A stretch of DNA of 26,495 nt from a virus: IMG/VR virus record IMGVR_UViG_3300009497_000036, positions 1 through 26,495 of that record; one strand, given 5' to 3'. Below the pieces are notes generated by a model. That model worked only from the letters and a program-made list of their open reading frames with translations. It ran no database searches and had not been told where the DNA came from. The position numbers and the translations under genes are program-made. Shown here piece by piece: positions 6,229 through 26,199 of this stretch (within the stretch, counting starts at the first letter, position 1; each line of letters opens with the position of its first letter).

Positions 6229-7650
6229 ATGGCATTAGCTGGAACAGGCGCGGAGTTATCGCACTTAACGCCGAGACCGAATAAAACTTTATTTGGTTCA
6301 AATTATTTATCAATCGCTGGCAACGACTTTAATTTCACAAAACAATTCCTACCGGAAGTTTATGAAAAAGAAGTTGAAAGATACGGAAACAGAACTATTT
6401 CTGGTTTCTTATCTATGGTCGGTGCTGAAATGCCTATGGCTTCTGACGAGGTCGTATGGTCTGAACAAGGTAGAATCCACGTAGCTTACGACGATGTCGT
6501 AGGTACTGACGTTTCTGCAAACTTACTAACATTTTCTGCTGCTCACTTACTAAGCGTCGGTGATACTATCATCGTTAGCAAAGGTGGTGTAACGTTAAAA
6601 TGTTACGTATCTGCTGTACCTAGTACAACTACTATAACTGCACAACCTTACACTGCTGCTGATATTTCAGGTATCGGCGCTGATGCTGTGACTGCTGTAA
6701 AAGTATTTGTTTATGGTTCAGAATATGCAAAAGGATCAAGCAACGCTGGTAACAAAAAAGATGCAACATTTACTTCTTTCTCGAATAAACCAATTATTCT
6801 AAGAGACAAGTACAGTGTAAATGGATCTGACACTGCTCAAATTGGGTGGGTTGAAGTTGCTACTGAAGCTGGTACTTCTGGATACTTATGGTACTTAAAA
6901 TCTGAGCACGAAGCAAGAATTAGATTTGAAGATCAATTAGAAATGGCTATGATTGAAGCTGAGAAAAAAGCATCTTCTTCTGCTATCTCTGCTTCAGGTA
7001 TTTCTGGATCTGAAGGTCTTTTTGCTGCTATTAGCTCAAGAGGATTAGTATACAACAACGCTGATTTTGATGACGGTATCTCCGGTGGAGTTCACGTTGG
7101 GCTTGCTGAATTTGATAGCATCTTACAAGAGCTTGACAAGCAAGGATCAATTGAAGAAAACATGATGTTCTTAGACAGAGCTACGTCTTTATCTATTGAC
7201 AACATGCTTGCTGCTCAAAATTCTTACGGATCTGGTGGTACTTCTTACGGAGTATTCAACAACTCTGAGGAAATGGCGTTAAATTTAGGTTTCTCTGGTT
7301 TCAGAAGAGGTTCTTATGACTTCTACAAAACTGACTGGAAATACTTAAATGATTCAACTACTAGAGGACTTGTAGCTGATATTGAAGGTGTTATCGTTCC
7401 TGCTGGAACTTCAACAGTTTACGATCAGATTATGGGTAAAAACATCCAAAGACCATTCTTACACGTTAGATACAGAGCTTCTGAAGCTGACGATAGAAGA
7501 ATGAAATCATGGATCACTGGTTCAGTTGGAGGTAACTATACAAGCGACGAAGATGCAATGAACGTACATTTCTTATCTGAGAGATGTTTATGTGTTCAAG
7601 CAGCTAACAACTTTGTATTGTTAAAATCTACTGATGGTATCCAAGGATAA
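6229..7650 (+). CDS. Major capsid protein
   Basis: The likely product is the coat protein forming the icosahedral shell, probably an HK97-type fold, though the fold is inferred and not seen. Support comes from its position after portal and scaffold, a typical length of 473 residues, an N-terminal arm (residues ~1-50), a Gly/Ala/Ser-rich middle and a well-ordered C-terminal half (residues ~225-470). Codon use is distinctive. By hand count, of 26 isoleucines only one uses ATA, while neighbouring genes prefer ATA, and TTC, AAC and TAC are frequent. This is the pattern of selection for high expression. A strong hairpin terminator follows the stop codon. Residues ~70-190 are beta-rich and Thr/Val/Ala-rich, and could be an inserted surface domain. 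Confidence 0.88.
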   Translation: MALAGTGAELSHLTPRPNKTLFGSNYLSIAGNDFNFTKQFLPEVYEKEVERYGNRTISGFLSMVGAEMPMASDEVVWSEQGRIHVAYDDVVGTDVSANLLTFSAAHLLSVGDTIIVSKGGVTLKCYVSAVPSTTTITAQPYTAADISGIGADAVTAVKVFVYGSEYAKGSSNAGNKKDATFTSFSNKPIILRDKYSVNGSDTAQIGWVEVATEAGTSGYLWYLKSEHEARIRFEDQLEMAMIEAEKKASSSAISASGISGSEGLFAAISSRGLVYNNADFDDGISGGVHVGLAEFDSILQELDKQGSIEENMMFLDRATSLSIDNMLAAQNSYGSGGTSYGVFNNSEEMALNLGFSGFRRGSYDFYKTDWKYLNDSTTRGLVADIEGVIVPAGTSTVYDQIMGKNIQRPFLHVRYRASEADDRRMKSWITGSVGGNYTSDEDAMNVHFLSERCLCVQAANNFVLLKSTDGIQG

Positions 7651-18885: not shown

Positions 18886-21800
18886 ATGGAAGAACTTTAC
18901 AGACAACTATATGCTAAATATAGTCCAGGTCTAAGTGAAGAAGAGTTGAATACTAAACTTCAATTTGCTTCTGAACAAGATCCAGAGGAGTGGATCAATG
19001 CGTTTTATCAGAAGTACACAGGCTCAGGTCCGAGCGAAGAACAATCAAACTACATATCGAATTACATGTCTGAGAACAAATCATCTACTGATTTAGTTCA
19101 ACTACCTAGCGAAGCTGAACCTAGTTGGATGCAAAAATTATTTGGTCAATCTGACTTTAGAGACGACCAAGCTACCGTAGGTGAATTTGAAGGGGAATCG
19201 TTTGACCTTTTGATAGATCCTAGTAAGTATACTAAAAAAGATTTAGAAGCTTACGTTAAACTTAGAGATGAATATAACAAAGTAGGTCCTAGTAAAGACA
19301 TGCAGTTATATACTAAGAATTATGAAGAAAACTTAAAACAATACGGTGATAAAGCTTCAAATCTTCAAGAGATGTGGGCTGGTTTAAAAGCTGTTGGAAG
19401 CACTGTTTCACTAAAAAATCCATTTGGAGCTATAGATGATATAGCTGTTGATTCTTTTTTAAGACCAGTAAGAGTAATGTATGGTTCTGAGCAAGTTGAA
19501 AAAGTTATTGGAGGTACTACCGTTGCAGCGGGTGCATCTAAAAAAGGTAAACTTCCAGCAAAACTTCTTAGAGGTTTAGGTGGTGGTTGGGCAGTTGCTC
19601 AAGGATCTGGTGATTCAGCTTTGCAATTACATACTTTAATAGCGGAAGAGTTAGGCGATGACTACACAGCGGAACAATTAGAATCTTTGTTGGGTGATGA
19701 AGAAGCATTTATGAAAATGAGAAGATCTGCGGCAATTAAAGGTGGAACAACAGCTTTAGTAGATTTTGCATTTATGAAATTAAGTATGGGTGCTGGAAAA
19801 GGAATTAACAAGTCTTTAGCAAGAGCAAAAGTACCTGGGTTTGTAAGAAAACCAGCTGCAGTTATTGGTGCTATGCAGGTAGAAGGTGTTGGTGGAGCAA
19901 CGGCTGAAGGAGCTGGTCAAGTTTTTACTAACCTAAGTGAGCAAGATAGAAAAACAGGTGAAATGGATCTTGGCAAAGCGGTTAAGGATGTTGATGGTGG
20001 TGAGCTAGTTATGGAATATTTTGCTGAACAATTATTCGGTGGAATAACCGGTGTAGCTGGTGTAAGAAAAGGTGTTGGTTCATACAGTATAAATGGTAAT
20101 CCTCATAATGAATCTGATTTTAGAGCTATAATGGACGGTATGAGTGATGAAGATATAGCTAAAGTATCTTTTGATATTAAAAATGATGATACTACCGCTG
20201 AATTATTTGAAAGTAGAAGAAAAGATGGTTTTATAAAAAACAACTTAGATACCAGGGTTACTGAAGAAGGTGATAGAACAAAACTTTTTGAATTAGAAAA
20301 AGAATTACAAGAGCTAGAGTCAAAGGGTTCAGTAACACAATCTCAAAAAAATGAAATAAGTAATAAAAAATCTGAAATAAAAGATATAACTAATACTTAT
20401 TTTGAAAAAAATAAAAGTTTAGAAGAAAATAAAGAAATCACAAACCAACAAGTATTAAAAAAAGCGGTTGGATCAGACATAGCTGAAGCTATGGGTGGTA
20501 AACAAGAGGTGCTTCAATACGATCAAGTTGTAGAAAGATATGGAGAAGATGCTGGTAGGCAAGCTGGTTTTATAGATCCTAAAACTGGTAAAGTTATTGT
20601 TAATAAAACTGTAGCAATTGACGGTGAAGGTAATCTTAACGTTGCCGGTCATGAGTTTATACATCAAGCATTGAACGCTAGGTTAAATGGAAAAGACAAA
20701 CAAGCTAGTGAAGCTGCACAAAAAGCTATAGAAAGCTTTAAACAAAAGATGGCTAAAGACAATGCAGATATTCATGCGATGGTTTTAGATAACTTCAAAA
20801 AACTAAACTACAGTAATGAAGAGGTTACTGGTGTAAATGCAGATGAGTATTTAGCTCAACTATCAGACTTAATGTCTAAAGACAAAAGTATAGCTAGAAA
20901 AATACAAGGTAAAGGTAGAATAGAATCTTTTATAGATAGTGTTAAAGATCTTATATCAGATACGTTAGGTATACCAAAAGCAGAGCTTAACTTTAAAACG
21001 GCAGATGATGTTACAAACTTCATGATAGCCCACAACAAAGCTTTTACTAATAAAAAAGCCGACACAAGGTTTAGAAAATTTACTAGTGAAAAAGTAGCTT
21101 CGACAGGTAAGAGAAAATTTAGTAAAGTAAATTTAGATCAAGCTGCGGATCCTGGTCCTATAATAGATGCTTTAACAAAAGGTGCTAAAACAAAAGCTGA
21201 GTTTCAAAGTCCTAATGGTGGGTTTGGCCAAGTTTATGAAGCTATAATAAACGGAGACTTAGATAAGTTATTTGGATCCGGTCTAAATAAGCAACAAAAA
21301 GATTTAGCTAGAGAAGAACTAGCAAACAGGTTAGTTAACTACGATTCAGCAAAAACACCTAGTTTATATAAGTGGTTTGGTAGTAATATAGTATATGCTA
21401 AAAGAGAAGCTAACAAAGCTTTAGCTATAGAAGCTAAAAAAGATAGACAGACTAAAAGTATCGATCAAGCTAAGAAAAATACTGAAGGTGATTCTTTTGC
21501 TACTCAAATAGAAGACACCACAGAGTTAACACCTGATGAAATACTAGATGCTAAACTTGCTAAAGAAAGAAAAGCTAAACAAGCTCCTGTAAAAGTAAAA
21601 GAAACATTGAGAAGAAAAATGGGCTTTGAAAGAAATGGTAAAGTTCATAATAGAATTAAAAAAGCTATTAAAACAAATATTCTTAGAAAAATGATGGTTA
21701 CAAGATCAGCGTTAAAAGAAGATATAGCTACTGGTCAATACAAGAAAGGTGATAAAATAACTGAAGCTGTTGATATAACAGATTTAAGATGGCAAAAAGA

Positions 21801-24800
21801 ATTAAATAAAAACTTAGGTTTTTATCTACAAGAAACTATGTATGAAGTTATGGGTAGAAGCACTGTAGATTATACTAACTTTTTAGATAAATTTATAGTA
21901 GAAGCTTTTGACATGATGGATCAAAACAATATAAACAAAAGATATAAAGATCTTGTTGTTAAAGTTGTTGATAGACAAAGCTCAAAACAATCATCACTAG
22001 ATAAGAATGTAAAAAGTAAAACAGCTGGTAACGCTTTATTTAAAAAAGCTAATAAAACTAAAGAACAATTAGTAGATTACTTTTTAAAACGTGGTAGAAA
22101 AGAAAGTCTAGCTCAAGTATTAGGTATAGAGTTTGGTCATGATGCTACTATGGAAGTTTTAGCTGAACCAGAAATAATGAGTAAAGCTGAGCAAGTATTA
22201 GTTAACAAAGGTAATTTAAAAAACCAAGCATTAACATCCCTTATAGCTAAGCAAATAAATAGAGATCCAGAATTAAAGTTTAGTAAAGTTTTAGATTTAG
22301 ACCAGAAGGATCAATTTGTACAAAAAGGATATGATTTTATACAAGCAATTAAAAAACTTCCAACAAGTAGAAAAAACATAATAGATGTGCTACGTTTTCA
22401 GTTTCCAGAATGGAGTGACAAAACATTAGCTAGCTTTGCTACGGAAATAATTAATCCAGTAAGAAGATATTTAGATCCAAAACTTAAAAAGAAAGGTATA
22501 AAAAATGAAAAAATAGATCCTTCAACTTTTATTTTTGAAAGTTTAAATTTAAAAATAAATAAACAAAACGATAACATAAATAAAATAACTGGAAATAAAG
22601 AATCTTTTAGAGATTTGTTTTTTAATGGTGATAAGCAAGCTGATGTTAGAGAAAATCTTAAAAACTACTTTTTAGACTCTATGAGCAAAGAGGTAATTAT
22701 AGATGGTGAAAAAACTAAAGTGCCAATAACTAATGACAAAGAAGTGATAAGTGTTCTTCAAGGTTTAATGCTTCATAAATCTCACAACACTGTTGGTGGT
22801 AAAAGCTTTAAAAAAAGATACCAGTCTTATAGTAGCGCTAAAGATTTTTACGACAATACATTTGCTTTTATACCAAATGTTACTGTAGTAGGTACTAAGA
22901 CAAAGCAAGGAATGTCTTATGCAATACATTATAAAGGTGTTAAGGTTAATTTTCCTCCAGCCGTATCACAATCAACAAAACTGACAGTAAAAGGTAAAAG
23001 AGTTAATAAAACAAAAGCATGGTGGGCGGAAAACTATGATAACTATGATGAAAGTGCAAAAAGAAACTTTGATGAAGTCAATAAGTATTTAGCTTACGTA
23101 GCTAAAATAAAAGATACTAGTGTTAAAGCTATGATGATAATGTCAATGAAACAAGGTATGGGTTCTATGCTGAAGTCTGCTGCTCGTGTTGAATATCATT
23201 ACGAAGGTAATTACAAGGGTGAACTTTTGTTTGAGCATATGGTACCCACTGAAAAAGCCCTGTTTGATTTATTAAGTTTTCATTCTGGTAGTAAAAAGTA
23301 TACGCTAGATGAAATACAAAAACAATATGTTGTTGCTATTATTCCAAAAACAATGGATAACAATATAAATGTTATATTTAACCAAGATAGATTATCTAAC
23401 TTTGATTATGCTACTGATGATGCTAGTTTGTTATATTATAACCCTGCTACGTTTGGCTATACCAACATGTACTCTATGAAGTCTCTTAGTGGTAAGGGTG
23501 AAATTATAGGAGAACAGTGGGCTAAATTTAAAGGAAAAATAAATAGCAAAAAAAATCAACAAGCTTTAAATAGATTAAACAAGATACAAGATATAAGAAA
23601 TAATAACTATAAGTTTTCTAAAGCTCCTGACAACAAAGGTATGAGTATATTTGATTTTGATGATACATTAGCTCAATCAAATAGTAAAGTAGGTGTTACA
23701 ATGCCTAACGGTAAGAAAAGAAAAATTACAGCTACTGAGTTTGCTATTGAATCTGCTGACTTAGAAGCTGCCGGAGCTACATTTGATTTCAGTGAGTTTA
23801 ACAAAGTTATTGATGGTAAGAAAGGACCTTTCTTCGATCTAGCTCAACAAATAAACAGTAAGTTTGGTAGTAAAGAAATATATGTATTAACAGCAAGACC
23901 TCAAGAAGCTTCTTATGCAATACATGCTTTTCTAAAAGGTATGGGGCTAAATATACCTATAGAAAACATAACTGGTTTAGAAGATGGTAAAGCGTCTGCT
24001 AAGGCTGACTGGGTTATAGCTAAAGTAGCTGATGGTTATAATAATATTTTATTTGCTGATGATGCAATAAAAAATGTTAAAGCTGTAAAAGAAGTATTAG
24101 AAATAGCTGAGGTAAAAAATGATGTACGACAAGCAAAGATTAAATTTAGTAAAACACTAGATGAAAACTTTAACACTATATTAGAAAGAAAGTCTGGTAT
24201 TAATAAAAATGAAGAATATAGTAAAGCAGCTGGTAAAGCAGCTGGATTAGGTAAAGGTAAGTATAAATTCTGGATGCCACCTTCAGCTGAAGACTTTGTG
24301 GGTCTAATTTACAATATGCTACCTGAAGGTAAGGCTGGAGAAAAATCTTTTAAATTCTTTACACAAGCTTTAATAGATCCATACTGGGCAGGTGTAAGAT
24401 CATTAAATGCAGCTAAGCAAGCTTTAGGTAATGACTTTTATGCTTTAAAGAAAAGATTTCCAAAAGCTTTTAAATCATTATTAAAAGATGTAGGTTATAA
24501 ACAATATTCAAACGAACAAGCTATAAGGGTTTATCTATGGAATAAAGCTGGTTTTGAAATACCAGGTATGTCTAAAGTTGATATAGAAAAGTTATCTGAT
24601 ATAGTAAGAAACAATCGCAACATGAGAGGTTTTGCTGATCTTGTTGGTGCTACAACTAAACTAGAAGAAGGTTATATAAAACCTGGTCAAGACTGGGTTA
24701 GTGGTACTATAGCTTATGATTACTTTAGTATAGCTCAAAAAACAAATAGAAAAAAGTATTTAGCTAATTGGATAGAAAGAAAAAATGAAATATTCTCTGA

Positions 24801-26199
24801 AAAGAACATGAATAAAATTGAAGCTATATATGGTGAAGATTATAGAAGTGCTTTAGAAGATATATTATGGAGAATGGAAAATGGTACGAACAGAACCACC
24901 GGTAAAAACAAATTAGTTAATAGTTGGATGAATTGGGTTAATAATTCTGTTGGTGCTATAATGTTCTTTAACAGTAGATCAGCTATACTTCAGACAATAT
25001 CTATGATAAACTTTATAAATTGGTCTGATAATAATCCATTAAAAGCTGGTATGGCCTTTGCTAATCAACCACAGTTTTGGTCTGATTTTAGTATGATATT
25101 TAATTCAGACATGCTAAAACAAAGAAGAGCTGGATTACAGAGTGATGTTAACGAGGCTGAGATAGCTCAAGCTGTTGCTGGTAAAACAGATAAAGCTTCT
25201 GCAGCTATATCTTATTTATTGAAAAAAGGTTTCTTACCTACACAGATGGCAGATAGCTTCGCGATATCAATGGGTGGTGCTAGTTTTTATAGAAATAGAT
25301 TTAATACATATAAGAGTCAAGGTATGACTGAAGCACAAGCTAAAGATAAAGCTTTTGCTGATTTTGCTAAAACATCTGAAGAATCACAACAATCTGCTGA
25401 TCCTGCTTTAATATCACAACAACAAGCTGGACCGCTTGGTAGACTGATACTTGCGTTTCAAAACACACCAATGCAGTATGCAAGATTAATAAAAAAAGCC
25501 GTATTAGATCTTAAAAATGGTCGAGGAGATGTAAAGACTAATATATCCAAAATACTATATTATGGTGTATTACAGAATATAATATTTTCTACTTTACAGT
25601 CTGGTTTATTTGCATTAGCTTTTGATGATGAAGAAGATGAAGAGCTAACACAAAAACTAGAAAACAAAAAGCTAAGAGCGTTAAACACTTCTCTTGATAG
25701 TTTACTAAGAGGTGGCGGTGTATATGGCGCTGGTATATCTACTATCAAAAACATGATACTTCAATTTAATGCTCAAAATGATAAAGGTTATAGAGCAGAC
25801 CACGCTTATACAATGATTGAAGCTATTAACTTATCCCCTCCAATCGGTAGTAAGGCTAGAAAAATTTACTCAGCTACACAAACATATAAGTTTAACAAAA
25901 AGATTATACCAACAATGGGTATGGGTGTTGATAACCCAGCTTATTTAGCTATAGCCAATATAGTATCTGCTACTACAAACGTACCTTTAGATAGAGCTAT
26001 AATGAAAATAAACAACTTAAGAGCCACTGCTGATTCACAAAATCAAGCTTGGCAAAGAGTTGCCACGTTTTTAGGTTGGAATACTTGGGATGTTGGTGTT
26101 AAGAATAAAGCTGTTGAAAAAGCTAAAGCTAAAAGCAAAAGAAAAAGTAAATCAAAAAGTAACAAGGATATACAAAGACTATTAAACAAAAGAAAATAA
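18886..26199 (+). CDS. Giant modular ejection protein: HExxH peptidase-like, HAD phosphatase, polyvalent C-terminus
   Basis: This 2437-residue protein probably enters the host with the DNA. Residues ~170-410 are Gly/Ala-rich helices. H589-E-F-I-H593 is an HExxH zinc-peptidase motif with E654 as a possible third ligand. Residues ~805-885 loosely resemble sigma-70 region 2 (YDSAKTPSLYKWF at 819-831, later FATQIED). Residues ~1420-1475 include an EHMVP motif at 1450-1454. Residues 1586-1750 are a HAD phosphatase with D1590-F-D1592-D-T1594, VLTARP at 1667-1672 and FADD ending D1725-D1726. The C-terminal ~680 residues resemble 'large polyvalent protein' tails, with a hydrophobic helix near 2224-2245, PLDRAIMKINNL and a Lys-rich end. 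K-F-S-K occurs at 744, 1131, 1576 and 1753, each between modules. It occupies the T7 gp16-like position. The HAD call is firm; the sigma resemblance is weak. Confidence 0.85.
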   Translation: MEELYRQLYAKYSPGLSEEELNTKLQFASEQDPEEWINAFYQKYTGSGPSEEQSNYISNYMSENKSSTDLVQLPSEAEPSWMQKLFGQSDFRDDQATVGEFEGESFDLLIDPSKYTKKDLEAYVKLRDEYNKVGPSKDMQLYTKNYEENLKQYGDKASNLQEMWAGLKAVGSTVSLKNPFGAIDDIAVDSFLRPVRVMYGSEQVEKVIGGTTVAAGASKKGKLPAKLLRGLGGGWAVAQGSGDSALQLHTLIAEELGDDYTAEQLESLLGDEEAFMKMRRSAAIKGGTTALVDFAFMKLSMGAGKGINKSLARAKVPGFVRKPAAVIGAMQVEGVGGATAEGAGQVFTNLSEQDRKTGEMDLGKAVKDVDGGELVMEYFAEQLFGGITGVAGVRKGVGSYSINGNPHNESDFRAIMDGMSDEDIAKVSFDIKNDDTTAELFESRRKDGFIKNNLDTRVTEEGDRTKLFELEKELQELESKGSVTQSQKNEISNKKSEIKDITNTYFEKNKSLEENKEITNQQVLKKAVGSDIAEAMGGKQEVLQYDQVVERYGEDAGRQAGFIDPKTGKVIVNKTVAIDGEGNLNVAGHEFIHQALNARLNGKDKQASEAAQKAIESFKQKMAKDNADIHAMVLDNFKKLNYSNEEVTGVNADEYLAQLSDLMSKDKSIARKIQGKGRIESFIDSVKDLISDTLGIPKAELNFKTADDVTNFMIAHNKAFTNKKADTRFRKFTSEKVASTGKRKFSKVNLDQAADPGPIIDALTKGAKTKAEFQSPNGGFGQVYEAIINGDLDKLFGSGLNKQQKDLAREELANRLVNYDSAKTPSLYKWFGSNIVYAKREANKALAIEAKKDRQTKSIDQAKKNTEGDSFATQIEDTTELTPDEILDAKLAKERKAKQAPVKVKETLRRKMGFERNGKVHNRIKKAIKTNILRKMMVTRSALKEDIATGQYKKGDKITEAVDITDLRWQKELNKNLGFYLQETMYEVMGRSTVDYTNFLDKFIVEAFDMMDQNNINKRYKDLVVKVVDRQSSKQSSLDKNVKSKTAGNALFKKANKTKEQLVDYFLKRGRKESLAQVLGIEFGHDATMEVLAEPEIMSKAEQVLVNKGNLKNQALTSLIAKQINRDPELKFSKVLDLDQKDQFVQKGYDFIQAIKKLPTSRKNIIDVLRFQFPEWSDKTLASFATEIINPVRRYLDPKLKKKGIKNEKIDPSTFIFESLNLKINKQNDNINKITGNKESFRDLFFNGDKQADVRENLKNYFLDSMSKEVIIDGEKTKVPITNDKEVISVLQGLMLHKSHNTVGGKSFKKRYQSYSSAKDFYDNTFAFIPNVTVVGTKTKQGMSYAIHYKGVKVNFPPAVSQSTKLTVKGKRVNKTKAWWAENYDNYDESAKRNFDEVNKYLAYVAKIKDTSVKAMMIMSMKQGMGSMLKSAARVEYHYEGNYKGELLFEHMVPTEKALFDLLSFHSGSKKYTLDEIQKQYVVAIIPKTMDNNINVIFNQDRLSNFDYATDDASLLYYNPATFGYTNMYSMKSLSGKGEIIGEQWAKFKGKINSKKNQQALNRLNKIQDIRNNNYKFSKAPDNKGMSIFDFDDTLAQSNSKVGVTMPNGKKRKITATEFAIESADLEAAGATFDFSEFNKVIDGKKGPFFDLAQQINSKFGSKEIYVLTARPQEASYAIHAFLKGMGLNIPIENITGLEDGKASAKADWVIAKVADGYNNILFADDAIKNVKAVKEVLEIAEVKNDVRQAKIKFSKTLDENFNTILERKSGINKNEEYSKAAGKAAGLGKGKYKFWMPPSAEDFVGLIYNMLPEGKAGEKSFKFFTQALIDPYWAGVRSLNAAKQALGNDFYALKKRFPKAFKSLLKDVGYKQYSNEQAIRVYLWNKAGFEIPGMSKVDIEKLSDIVRNNRNMRGFADLVGATTKLEEGYIKPGQDWVSGTIAYDYFSIAQKTNRKKYLANWIERKNEIFSEKNMNKIEAIYGEDYRSALEDILWRMENGTNRTTGKNKLVNSWMNWVNNSVGAIMFFNSRSAILQTISMINFINWSDNNPLKAGMAFANQPQFWSDFSMIFNSDMLKQRRAGLQSDVNEAEIAQAVAGKTDKASAAISYLLKKGFLPTQMADSFAISMGGASFYRNRFNTYKSQGMTEAQAKDKAFADFAKTSEESQQSADPALISQQQAGPLGRLILAFQNTPMQYARLIKKAVLDLKNGRGDVKTNISKILYYGVLQNIIFSTLQSGLFALAFDDEEDEELTQKLENKKLRALNTSLDSLLRGGGVYGAGISTIKNMILQFNAQNDKGYRADHAYTMIEAINLSPPIGSKARKIYSATQTYKFNKKIIPTMGMGVDNPAYLAIANIVSATTNVPLDRAIMKINNLRATADSQNQAWQRVATFLGWNTWDVGVKNKAVEKAKAKSKRKSKSKSNKDIQRLLNKRK

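Follow-up and report, generated by a model that had tools for sequence, protein, structure and literature searches.

Polyvalent proteins of phages and conjugative elements are large multidomain proteins of the virion or of the transferred complement that carry embedded zincin-like metallopeptidases, for which autoproteolysis was predicted (Iyer et al., 2017; PMC5512222). The text of that paper contains neither "linker" nor "KFS", and no cleavage sites were found in it. Self-cleavage of these proteins was predicted as early as 2017, the role of the metallopeptidase has been a standing question since, and we found no published cleavage sites. In phage P1, the polyvalent head proteins DarA and DdrB are proteolytically processed; in DarA the prohead protease Pro cuts close to the N-terminus, and the available portion of the source describes no repeated internal site (PMC12810830). 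The cargo proteins gp47, gp49 and gp50 of crAss001 are likewise giant and carried in the virion, but no coherent repeated peptide was found in them and cleavage is not mentioned in their description (PMC10172136). The virion RNA polymerase of phage N4 is a giant ejected protein with a HExxH peptidase domain of the kind considered here; it is packaged unprocessed and, unlike the protein described below, has no repeated [KRQ][FYW]S peptide. That it has such a domain and is nevertheless packaged whole speaks against self-processing; its lack of a repeated site is what a self-processing hypothesis would predict. Polyproteins of RNA viruses have several similar sites and one embedded protease of the cysteine or serine type. 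The present protein resembles these in its coherent sites and embedded protease, and differs in that it belongs to a DNA phage, is probably delivered by the virion and carries a zincin, with cleavage only predicted.

The window, i.e. the whole stretch analysed, is a virus record of 26.5 kb (26,495 nucleotides) with a terminase-portal-capsid-tail block, the last gene of which encodes a protein of 2437 amino acids (Table 1). Zincin, sigma-like, HAD and C-terminal modules are combined in this one phage-encoded chain, as is characteristic of polyvalent proteins. A Pfam search with the window protein gave no confident match and no LPD domain, and its best BFVD match is an LPD-annotated protein (E 6.5e-3, probability 0.93). 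For the sigma-like module, one sequence in the alignment hits Sigma70_r2 at 2e-5, a match that was not obtained with the window protein alone. The HAD module matches the polynucleotide kinase family PHROG 415 (E 4e-4) and, by Foldseek, HAD phosphatases, with probabilities that reach 0.99-1.0 and an E that stays above 0.03. The C-terminal module probably has a role in ejection or at the membrane. Delivery of the protein from the virion into the host is suggested by gene order and by distantly related structural proteins in flavobacterial phages, of which one set is MS-annotated. The sigma-70 region-2-like module (21235-22269) of this probably injected protein may redirect the host RNA polymerase at infection.

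Table 1. Position of the giant protein, its modules and its repeated peptides in the window.
Feature	Residues	Position	Strand	Basis
Giant polyvalent protein, 2437 aa, probably ejection protein		18886..26199	+	ORF; last gene of terminase-portal-capsid-tail block
N-terminal module	97-425	19174..20160	+	iterative HMM; in 26/123 relatives
Zincin metallopeptidase module	431-719	20176..21042	+	module in 98/123 relatives; conserved residues; AF2 model
HExxH active-site motif	589-593	20650..20664	+	sequence and alignment
Invariant Glu654, probable third zinc ligand	654	20845..20847	+	alignment, model position 228
KFSK site 1	744-747	21115..21126	+	~155 aa after HExxH; in pLDDT<50 segment 721-747
Sigma-70 region-2-like module	784-1128	21235..22269	+	in 32/123 relatives
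KFSK site 2	1131-1134	22276..22287	+	3 aa past sigma-like module; in pLDDT<50 segment 1114-1135
Module X	1304-1549	22795..23532	+	in 50/123 relatives
KFSK site 3	1576-1579	23611..23622	+	in pLDDT<50 segment 1574-1580
HAD phosphatase module	1583-1750	23632..24135	+	PHROG 415 and Foldseek
KFSK site 4, post-HAD	1753-1756	24142..24153	+	in pLDDT<50 segment 1753-1759
Conserved C-terminal module	1761-2427	24166..26166	+	in 123/123 relatives

The initial annotation had placed KFSK at residues 744, 1131, 1576 and 1753 and nowhere else, with HExxH upstream of all four and the last two copies on either side of the HAD module, and was correct in each respect (HExxH at 589-593, HAD at 1583-1750). The four are also the sole occurrences of KFS, FSK, [KR]FS and K.SK in the 2437 residues. 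Composition predicts 0.099 copies of KFSK; four copies arose in none of 5000 shuffles, in which some 4-mer reached at least four copies in about 3%. In AlphaFold2 models (mean pLDDT 78), all four peptides fall in disordered gaps that separate predicted folded blocks, and segments with pLDDT<50 beyond the four that bear KFSK are few. Site 2 is, in the first of these models, a coil ending the sigma-like module at moderate confidence. Similar sites at several domain joints within predicted disordered linkers are what is expected of a self-processing polyprotein.

We consider it probable that the 2437-residue chain is a polyprotein of the virion and that the KFSK peptides are recognized or cleaved by one endopeptidase, most likely the embedded zincin. 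Cleavage itself, its assignment to the zincin and its timing are our inferences: cleavage would separate the N-terminus with the peptidase, the sigma-like module, module X, the HAD phosphatase and the C-terminal ejection module from each other, either during assembly or after injection. The version of the peptide would be specific to each phage, and the sites of one protein would drift together, being read by a single recognizer.

Scans of public viral contigs yielded 165 giant proteins with the C-terminal module, or 123 once near-duplicates were removed, and every known relative of the window protein comes from metagenomes. Among isolated phages, tblastn with the window protein found no close relative; with L060 it gave weak matches only, leading to Tenacibaculum phage Gundel_1 and from there to Cellulophaga and Flavobacterium phages, with no clear repeated site. 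A coherent repeat was not found in Pseudomonas phages F116 and USP_25 either. The joint peptides of the metagenomic relatives vary by phage and repeat within the protein: KFSK, QFSK, NFSK, KFSQ, DFSK, MFSR, KFKR, KFSE, SENP, SKSI and others. Examples are QFSK five times in L033, MFSR four times in L046, KFKR four times in L060, SENP three times in L042 and SKSI three times in L029. The search for KFSK in homologues proposed in the initial annotation thus recovers a repeated peptide at equivalent joints, while the exact peptide changes between phages. The L-D that was pointed out after three of the copies is present here and absent in relatives (VDGTK and VEKG in L005), and is incidental since it is not kept.

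Relatives can be aligned at the position that follows HAD, and the tetrapeptide that each protein has there was counted elsewhere in the same protein. Such recurrences number 66 among the 123 relatives. When words were swapped between proteins 20,000 times, the mean was 17.3 and the highest value 39, and an anagram control gave 6.8. Words other than KFSK and QFSK account for 27 recurrences where 4.4 are expected. The coherence persists among representatives whose C-terminal modules are less than 65%, 60% and 55% identical (n=53, 37 and 21), and at less than 50% (n=11) the test loses its power. The swap tests leave each word and each protein intact, and shared ancestry is not fully removable from them. 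The exact post-HAD tetrapeptide is repeated in only 41/123 relatives, and loss of a single site is frequent; site 3 is missing in L002 and L003. Two relatives have an additional domain between HAD and the C-terminus with copies on both sides, L122 (xFSE[TS] six times) and L150 (QFS[KRE] at several joints). Some relatives without an aromatic residue in the post-HAD site have a different coherent peptide (SENP, SKSI), and in others a repeat was not detectable at all. In a clade with L103, L105, L111, L113, L118 and L134, the aromatic motif after HAD gives way to an inserted peptide of the type [TK]MxSK[VI][IV] about 16 aa further on, and L113 has a similar peptide also before HAD.

The sites after HAD and at the end of the sigma-like module occupy homologous positions in the relatives, as would be the case if the repeats stemmed from common ancestry of conserved domain ends. 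This explanation, or one of chance repeats, is nevertheless very unlikely: sites within one protein match each other more than they match the words of other proteins, and coherence is seen also in a sequence-unrelated class of proteins (see below). The shuffles and swap tests rule out chance, barring sampling artefacts. The best explanation of the within-protein coherence is one recognizer per phage that reads several linkers.

The six modules of the window protein are freely mixed among relatives, as delimited by iterative HMMs. In comparison with four relatives (L006-L009), the N-terminal halves of which are largely unrelated to that of the window protein, strong homology begins at 1483-1584, and for three of the four at 1561-1584, which coincides with site 3. 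This joining of HAD and the C-terminal module, close to site 3, to N-terminal halves that are unrelated is the arrangement expected if the motifs were short DNA homologies for cassette recombination, as the initial annotation suggested. The serine codon families AGY and TCN cannot be interconverted by a single base change. In the window, KFSK is encoded at sites 1 to 4 by AAATTTAGTAAA, AAGTTTAGTAAA, AAGTTTTCTAAA and AAATTTAGTAAA, which are not DNA repeats, and across relatives the serine codon family differs in 46/96 pairs of sites in the same protein (48%, against 47% expected if independent). The serine codons at coherent sites are therefore independent; selection is on the peptide, and the repeats did not arise by copying of linker DNA. 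Variants other than KFSK are equally coherent. DNA-level recombination joints are not supported, given the mixed AGY/TCN codons at matching sites, and we regard the recombination explanation as largely refuted and exceedingly improbable. Module swaps do occur at the joints, as had been suggested, because the joints are domain borders.

The zincin appears catalytically intact. Each of the 68 aligned zincins has His-Glu-His and a Glu further downstream, at a mean column identity of 12%, and the AF2 model has three strands, the HExxH helix and a Glu helix; the invariant residues and predicted topology thus place HExxH on one helix and Glu on the following one, as in zincins. Foldseek against the PDB with the two-module peptidase model was uninformative and matched no solved zincin, and a PDB search by sequence was likewise uninformative, giving coiled-coil noise only. 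The position of the sites relative to the peptidase is one-sided. Recurrences of a protein's own word are C-terminal to HExxH in 60/60 cases and before it in none, where 17.9 would be expected before, and pooled [KRQ][FYW]S motifs are most frequent 125-175 aa past HExxH, at the C-terminal border of the zincin. Among candidates for the cutter the embedded zincin comes first: it precedes the sites, directly adjoins one of them and has conserved catalytic residues. The protease-site part of the initial annotation is supported to this extent: the sites lie at domain joints and all past the embedded zincin, are kept or change in concert among relatives, and behave as recognition sites at the level of the peptide.

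The main rival to cleavage is that the peptides are docking motifs, bound in the linkers by one phage or host factor (a packaging partner, the portal, a chaperone or an unfoldase) that loads or threads the modules without cutting them. Coherence points to one recognizer and not to proteolysis as such, and N4 packages its virion RNA polymerase without processing. Motif type did not covary with peptidase divergence (partial Mantel r -0.004, p 0.52), in a test of low power on saturated whole-zincin distances; co-evolution of motif and peptidase was rejected on this result. Docking is unlikely, in that own-word sites recur solely past the peptidase with one at its C-terminal edge, and in that the inserted domains of L122 and L150 are flanked on both sides.

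The missing covariation would equally fit cleavage by a separate phage or host protease, for which the cutting of P1 DarA by Pro (PMC12810830) offers a precedent. We find this quite improbable, as an S78 prohead protease was not found in six contigs of relatives, and the best 25 of 31 Pfam families in a 68-kb relative include just one further peptidase, a lysin-type M15. Neither HExxH nor KFSK is present in any other ORF of 80+ aa in that relative. Cleavage by the embedded zincin remains our preferred reading. Counting against it are the missing covariation, which would be expected of a self-processing polyprotein, the exact repeat in only a minority of relatives, the loss of single sites, the lack of a Foldseek match to a solved zincin and the unprocessed N4 polymerase.

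The likeness to [KR][FY]S linkers of polyvalent proteins, pointed out in the initial annotation, held in a second, sequence-unrelated class. A [KR]YSLKD-like peptide served as bait in a pattern search and led to a viral giant protein, L182, with HExxH at 695 and [KR]YSLK at 855, 1045 and 1214 around an ADP-ribosyltransferase-like domain. No relation of L182 to the zincin and C-terminal HMMs was detectable. Among its relatives in genomes of Clostridia and other Bacillota (18 proteins), residue matches number 60, against 25.9 expected and a maximum of 54 in 20,000 swaps; with one motif copy as bait, the other copies are unbiased, but at least one copy was selected for. Polyvalent proteins in Clostridia-type genomes (L206, L211, L229, L219 and others) have coherent [KR][FY]S-xx peptides of their own around ADP-ribosyltransferase-like domains. 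A broader possibility, to which we give somewhat less than an even chance, is that polyvalent ejection proteins of tailed phages are self-processing in general, with an element-specific joint code that drifts as a set, also in the Clostridia class.

If the peptides are sites, self-processing becomes directly testable through four short linkers or one glutamate. They would also provide an objective domain division of giant phage proteins for which annotation is poor, as well as a set of natural proteases whose specificities diverge.

The genomic setting offers two further observations. The 68-kb contig that holds L002 (L173-L176) encodes a GroEL chaperonin, a sigma factor, ribonucleotide reductase, thymidylate synthase, DNA ligase and ERF. 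In the window, the major capsid protein (6229-7650) has a weak Pfam match to the crassvirus capsid (E 3e-4, short of the cut-off), a hint from sequence that the virus may be a marine relative of Crassvirales.
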